Shown: one piece after another, positions 1,766 through 2,193 of the stretch | Layout: every line of letters starts with the position of its first letter | Position numbering within the stretch: the stretch's first letter is position 1 | The notes under the pieces: generated by a model | Told to the model about the DNA's origin: nothing | Databases searched by the model: none | What the model saw: the letters and a program-made list of their open reading frames with translations, nothing else | Assembly: GCA_013360215.1 (NCBI GenBank) | Contig: JABWCP010000001.1 | Coordinates: 215,144 to 279,143, forward strand | Direction: 5' to 3' | DNA from: a bacterium | GTDB taxonomy: Bacteria; CLD3; SB21 | Length of the DNA stretch: 64,000 nucleotides | Translations under genes and position numbers: made by a program

Positions 1766-1801
1766 AAAAAAATAAGCCTCTCCCGGGAGATTGGAAGAGG
1801 C
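1766..1801 (-). terminator. Intrinsic terminator (expression platform) of the SAM-I riboswitch
   Basis: In the minus-strand transcript a 9-bp stem (arms at 1793-1801 and 1776-1784, one G-U pair, 8-base loop) is followed by a run of eight U (plus strand 1765-1772) about 18 bases before the metB ATG. The 5' arm can instead pair with the purine-rich segment that begins in the 3' P1 strand of the aptamer (around 1801-1816), giving an antiterminator. This is the standard OFF-switch arrangement: SAM binding holds P1 and frees the terminator. Confidence 0.85.
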
Positions 1802-1811
1802 CTAGGCTTCT

Positions 1812-1947
1812 TCTCTCATCTTTCCCGAAACCAATACCGTTCGGTATCGGCGGGCAGGATGCGGCACCGGGCATGCACAGGACGTCACTATGCATCGGTT
1901 GCCAAGGCTTCACAGGGCCTGATCCCTCAGCCTTTCGCGATAAGAGT
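1812..1947 (-). ncRNA. SAM-I (S-box) riboswitch aptamer controlling metB-metY
   Basis: On the minus strand the RNA starts with CUCUUAUC (plus 1939-1946), followed by the S-box core with GCUGAGGGA, a GGCCC block, UGAAGCC and GGCAACC, and ends with GGAAAGAUGAGAG. The first and last segments pair as P1 (1939-1946 with 1813-1820, one G-U). The order and spacing of these blocks match the SAM-I consensus closely, and the position upstream of methionine genes with a terminator behind it fits. It is expected to switch off metB and metY when S-adenosylmethionine is plentiful. Confidence 0.96.
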
Positions 1948-1995
1948 GTATGTCGTTGGTTGTTTAAGTCATTTTATTCTTTGTTTGAGTGTAAA

Positions 1996-2028
1996 ACAAA
2001 AAGCCCTTCCGTTTTATCGGAAGGGCTT
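1996..2028 (-). terminator. Terminator in the met leader, upstream of the SAM-I aptamer
   Basis: A perfect 11-bp stem (2018-2028 with 2001-2011, 6-base loop) is followed in the minus-strand transcript by UUUGUUUU. It is too far from asd (stop at 2241) to be just its terminator, because a strong promoter lies between them. The 5' arm of this stem can also pair, over 10 perfect bases, with a copy of the 3' arm that lies inside the upstream leader ORF (2068-2077), so the hairpin looks like part of an attenuator. Confidence 0.82.
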
Positions 2029-2053
2029 GAAGTAAAAATATTCTACTTATTTG

Positions 2054-2116
2054 CTATAAATGGATATAGCCCTTCCGCGTACAGGTGCACATGCACATCT
2101 GCATCATCGTGGGCAT
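2054..2116 (-). CDS. Putative Met/Cys-rich leader peptide (20 aa)
   Basis: A 20-codon frame starting with ATG at 2116-2114 and ending with TAG at 2056-2054. Met occupies positions 1, 4, 5, 7 and 9 and Cys positions 8, 10 and 12, so eight of the first twelve codons are Met or Cys. Codons 14-16 contain the sequence that can act as antiterminator partner for the terminator 26 bases beyond the stop. It lies about 40 bases downstream of a sigma-70-like promoter and upstream of the metB-metY genes. There is no convincing Shine-Dalgarno sequence, which is the main weakness. The composition and position suggest a translated sensor for charged Met/Cys tRNA (inference). Confidence 0.55.
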   Translation of the reverse strand: MPTMMQMCMCTCTRKGYIHL

Positions 2117-2163
2117 TATATTCTGAGCTGTTTTTGTGTTGCTAAATAAAATCATAATGAAAT

Positions 2164-2193
2164 AATATATACGCCGCACCCCACCCTTGTCAA
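2164..2193 (-). promoter_or_regulatory. Sigma-70-type promoter of the met leader-metB-metY operon
   Basis: On the minus strand, TTGACA (2193-2188) and TATATT (2169-2164) are 18 bp apart; a shifted TATATA gives 16 bp. The predicted transcript starts near 2157, about 40 bases before the leader ORF. It lies between asd and the leader, so metB-metY have their own promoter. Confidence 0.75.

Follow-up and report, generated by a model that had tools for sequence, protein, structure and literature searches.

The operon that begins with metB and metY is preceded, within the stretch of bacterial DNA analysed here (the window, 64 kb), by two regulatory elements of different kinds: a putative attenuator with a leader ORF rich in Met and Cys codons and, behind it, a SAM-I riboswitch. 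The best explanation of this arrangement, to which we assign a probability of roughly 0.7, is that the attenuator and the riboswitch, the latter as an OFF switch, act in series with an AND output. Two sensors in series before metB-metY had already been proposed in a sequence-only reading of the same DNA, and the sequence anatomy and the tests against chance support this proposal well. The 10-nt antiterminator arm within the ORF, metX as a further operon gene and a possible leaderless start are new with respect to that reading. The locus is real as sequence anatomy and very likely functional, and it probably forms a true AND gate.

All elements are situated on the minus strand, such that window coordinates decrease along the transcript; the elements, their order and strand, the alternative pairings, the promoter match and the rarity of the pattern are established by the data given below. 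The gene asd (3293-2241) lies upstream on the same strand and is followed by the met promoter, TTGACA and TATATT with a spacer of 18 nt (2193-2164), which agrees with the consensus at 11 of 12 positions. The leader ORF MPTMMQMCMCTCTRKGYIHL (20 codons) extends from an ATG at 2116 to a TAG at 2054, and an intrinsic terminator with its U tract is situated behind it (2028-1991, stem 2028-2001). After a gap of 54 nt (the spacing had been given as 50 bases), the SAM-I aptamer (1946-1813) and a second intrinsic terminator with U tract (1804-1765, stem 1804-1773) follow. The first gene of the operon, metB (1747-542), is cystathionine gamma-synthase-like: its best NCBIfam models are cystathionine gamma-synthases, and it scores below their equivalog cut-offs. 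The second gene, metY (508-1, running past the window end), codes for an O-acetylhomoserine/O-acetylserine sulfhydrylase (TIGR01326, 705 bits); metX, above the cut-off of the PRK00175 MetX model, is third, and a short-chain dehydrogenase gene comes after it. A second metB-like gene, 52% identical to the operon copy and common to the family relatives, is found on contig C3 of the same genome. Upstream of asd, 20 nt before its start, an intrinsic terminator with T8 (3334-3314, minus strand) is preceded by a short basic Met-containing ORF, MSNGKRKRMVMHHRMRR (3423-3370, minus strand); folding gave no antiterminator, and this terminator, rejected as a further attenuator, may be an ordinary one.

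As read from the sequence, the upstream element has the full anatomy of an attenuator. The leader ORF contains Met at codons 1, 4, 5, 7 and 9 and Cys at codons 8, 10 and 12. Eight Met/Cys codons within 12 were never reached in 20,000 dinucleotide shuffles (maximum 7, reached twice), and a scan of 1.67 Mb of sequence yielded just two further sites with at least 7 in 12. Directly behind the Met/Cys run of the leader, codons 14-17 contain region 2, CGGAAGGGCU (2077-2068), which is an exact 10-nt copy of the 3' arm of the leader terminator (region 4, 2011-2002) and is therefore able to pair, as the 5' arm of an antiterminator, with the terminator 5' arm (region 3, 2027-2018). A repeat of this kind arose in 2 of 20,000 shuffles, and of the 76 intrinsic terminators in about 0.85 of the 3.72 Mb of this genome, no other is preceded by an arm copy of at least 8 nt. 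The terminator itself consists of an 11-bp stem with 7 G-C pairs and a 6-nt loop, followed by TTTGTTTT. In the minimum-energy fold, a protector-like hairpin 1:2 (2114-2069) pairs the start codon and the Met/Cys codons with the GGGC of region 2, and the energies of the three structures are balanced (1:2 -18.3, 2:3 -19.1, 3:4 -19.3 kcal/mol). Inspection revealed no Shine-Dalgarno sequence before the 20-codon ORF, such that its translation is uncertain; a further ATG in the same frame, located at 2155 and 9 nt behind the -10 element, would yield a form of 33 amino acids and suggests leaderless translation.

Concerning the position of a stalled ribosome, a model was used in which the ribosome footprint was hidden codon by codon and the nascent RNA was folded up to region 3. 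The mean 2:3 pairing probability is 0.90-0.91 as long as the A site is within codons 1-9; codon 10 still gives 0.81 and codon 11 gives 0.35, and the value drops to 0.00 for codons 12-20 and is 0.16 for the stop codon. By this profile, a stall at Met codons 4, 5, 7 and 9 or at Cys codon 8 would open the gate, and one at Cys codon 12 would not. All four footprint sizes preserve the switch between codons 9 and 12. A ribosome of the smallest footprint leaves 2:3 free to form once more when it is at the stop codon (0.9), such that termination would need a ribosome over region 2 while regions 3 and 4 are being transcribed. When no ribosome is present, 2:3 likewise prevails in the nascent RNA at equilibrium (0.91), and termination without translation thus depends on kinetic trapping in 1:2.

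The aptamer and terminator claimed for the downstream element were both recovered. The aptamer matches the complete RF00162 model (positions 1-108) with 67.5 bits against a gathering threshold of 44.4 (E 1.4e-13), and is the sole Rfam hit in the 64-kb window, in which no T-box was hit either; weak matches to the PyrG and rnk leaders over the leader region scored far below gathering and were rejected, and a tRNA scan and a tandem-repeat search gave nothing relevant. P1 pairs completely and coexists in the full fold with the terminator, a 12-bp stem followed by T8. When the 5' strand of P1 is masked, part of its 3' strand enters an antiterminator (1817-1787) and the terminator is excluded; in these folds, the arrangement of P1, antiterminator and terminator is the standard S-box OFF design. 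In the full transcript, the leader and SAM-I modules are separate folding units with no cross pair above 0.2. The same genome possesses a second, ordinary SAM-I element before metK, with its own promoter directly in front. A boxA-like motif, GTTCTTT, which relatives and homologues repeatedly carry between the -10 element and the aptamer in the leaders of metK and metB (L001, L003, L004, L045, L046, L049), is absent in front of the window aptamer.

From these features we infer that the upstream promoter is used, that ribosomes stall, that SAM is bound and that the two gates give an AND output. One transcript would start near 2157 and would have two terminators to pass before metB. The first gate would be ribosome-mediated attenuation of the classical type: a shortage of Met-tRNA or Cys-tRNA would stall a ribosome in codons 4-10 and leave region 2 free to pair with region 3, which would block the 3:4 terminator and allow RNA polymerase to continue; if both are abundant, the ribosome would proceed over region 2 and the 3:4 terminator would form. 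The second gate would be the SAM-I OFF switch, in which SAM would stabilise P1 and free the second terminator, and in which the 3' strand of P1 would be taken into the antiterminator when SAM is absent. The operon would thus be fully on only at low charging with Met or Cys and at low SAM. The genes fit both signals, since cystathionine synthase uses cysteine and MetY-type enzymes make homocysteine or cysteine. A control by "precursor amino acids", as it had been worded, is apt for cysteine, a substrate of the MetB step, but not for methionine, which is the end product. A counterpoint to a Met-sensing gate is that Met starvation also limits the initiator tRNA.

Whether both terminators lie on one transcript, as had been claimed, depends on the promoters. 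The upstream promoter scores 13.7, which roughly one position in 60 kb attains and none of 5000 shuffles of that stretch reaches, and its architecture is that of the promoters immediately in front of SAM-I in relatives and homologues; compared with the homologues that carry SAM-I only, where the promoter precedes the riboswitch, the strong promoter here precedes the leader instead. These observations favour the claim. A separate start between 1947 and 2000 had been named as the observation against it, and the gap between leader terminator and aptamer indeed contains a single promoter-like match, TTGTTT-17-TAAAAT (1999-1971, score 9.8), which gives weak support to a possible bypass promoter. 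If this promoter fed SAM-I directly, the leader would govern only the transcripts from upstream, and the locus would combine SAM control with an optional Met/Cys boost rather than an AND. The match ends 24 nt before the aptamer, within the 12-44 nt found between -10 element and aptamer at homologous loci; however, the gap is AT-rich and an equal or higher score was obtained in 152 of 5000 gap shuffles, the candidate -35 falls inside the U tract of the leader terminator, and TTGACA is kept by all promoters of the SAM-I-only homologues and of metK. We consider two parallel promoters unlikely, although no other alternative fares as well.

Still less likely is a locus in which the attenuator works and has taken over from a SAM-I element that no longer responds to SAM. 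This idea is raised by two junctions of the aptamer, J1/2, which reads GCGA (1938-1935), and J3/4, which reads GCAU (1862-1859) in place of the AA found in 73 of 74 parsed aptamers, and by the score of 67.5 bits, which lies under the 68-88 bits of close homologues. Judged from these deviations, the affinity for SAM may be altered. Against such a loss of response, the score is far above gathering, P1, the alternative antiterminator and the terminator are intact, and a C at the same position of J1/2 is also present in five other parsed loci. Least probable of all is that the terminator at 2028-2001 merely marks the 3' end of asd, the Met/Cys ORF being accidental and metB being controlled by SAM-I only from the weak gap promoter: asd does lie upstream on the same strand with its stop codon 213 nt before this terminator, no other terminator was found between asd and the leader, and the ORF has no Shine-Dalgarno sequence, but the antiterminator repeat (unique among the 76 terminators) and the Met/Cys run each exceed chance and are mutually in register, a near-consensus promoter is situated between asd and the ORF, and SAM-I would be left with just a weak promoter.

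The serial arrangement of attenuator and riboswitch can also be viewed in the light of related loci. None of eight relatives of the same family or class possesses metX, the proteins that match MetY best in them are more remote paralogues of about 40% identity, and in those relatives that have SAM-I the element is located before metK. Horizontal acquisition of the operon is suggested by the lack of metX and of a true metY in the family relatives. The closest metB homologues elsewhere (65-73% identity) stem from MAGs labelled Bacteroidetes, KSB1, Acidobacteria and Ignavibacteriae. Four close homologues exhibit the order promoter, SAM-I, metB and lack a comparable leader ORF or attenuator, and a fifth (L047) gave no SAM-I hit. 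The leader would accordingly be an addition at this locus, and the simplest reading is that a SAM-I-metB operon was acquired horizontally and that a leader attenuator now separates its promoter from its riboswitch. The leader pattern ATGNNNNNNATGATGNNNATGTGY is present, among 21 genomes, in its own genome alone. A DNA search for leader homologues in 386 genomes returned short matches only, the best of which, at the terminator palindrome (E 2e-5), was taken as chance. The upstream 450 nt were also compared among 153 distinct SAM-I loci. This set, most of which came from two surveys that each covered about 390 genomes, contains the window locus itself and one locus whose position is unverified; within it, no other locus has more than 4 Met/Cys codons in 10 or a terminator with an antiterminator copy of at least 8 nt. 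That the leader is a single instance, with no homologue in these searches, counts against the serial reading.

Ribosome-mediated transcription attenuators are known from amino-acid operons, among them the trp, his, thr and ilv leaders. A further leader attenuator is the Cys leader uORFC-8-2 before cysS in Rhodobacterales (PMC8632094). With all of these, the locus shares a short ORF enriched in codons for the regulated amino acids, alternative antiterminator and terminator structures and the predicted read-through upon stalling, whereas its codons are a mixture of Met and Cys, the operon is a met operon and no homologue family is detectable. Concerning the riboswitch, aptamer, P1, antiterminator and terminator before a met gene are those of SAM-I (S-box, RF00162) in general; unlike the usual SAM-I, the aptamer is situated behind a leader attenuator and deviates in J1/2 and J3/4. 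Two riboswitches in tandem, SAM-I and AdoCbl, precede metE and likewise place two serial gates with a Boolean output before a met gene, whereas there both gates are riboswitches and here one is predicted to be a translated leader. The SAM-I/AdoCbl pair as such is cited in PMC7270179. The SAM-I riboswitch of the Xanthomonas campestris met operon also binds uncharged initiator tRNA (PMC7270179), such that one leader answers to both SAM and Met-tRNA charging; there, however, the expression platform binds the tRNA directly and controls translation, whereas here the sensing of charging would fall, via ribosome stalling, to a distinct leader peptide upstream. In Salmonella, tandem attenuators are described for mgtCBR (PMC3641672); two attenuation controls with short ORFs are likewise arranged in series in one long leader there, but the signals are different and no metabolite riboswitch of the SAM-I class appears.

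Both parts of the locus are thus of known kinds, whereas their combination and the Met/Cys specificity appear new, on the basis of a single instance. The open-access literature searched contains no Met leader of this attenuator kind and no described class of Met-sensing leader attenuators, perhaps because Met starvation blocks initiation too. Equally, no Met/Cys leader in series with SAM-I was found there, such that the pairing stands, as had been suspected, as undescribed, with its novelty provisional. A survey of 2010 noted that leader-peptide systems had until then been reported only from Proteobacteria and Actinobacteria, to which it added Firmicutes (PMC2965389). We regard it as fairly probable that the locus represents a natural AND gate built from a Met/Cys stalling attenuator and a SAM-I riboswitch, with the leader inserted between promoter and riboswitch of an acquired met operon, in a phylum in which leader-peptide attenuation is hardly described. 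The homologues with SAM-I only would form, together with this locus, a before-and-after pair in which the gain of a second gate is directly testable. If the reading is true, a serial attenuator and riboswitch would combine tRNA charging with a metabolite signal and would do so with no protein regulator.
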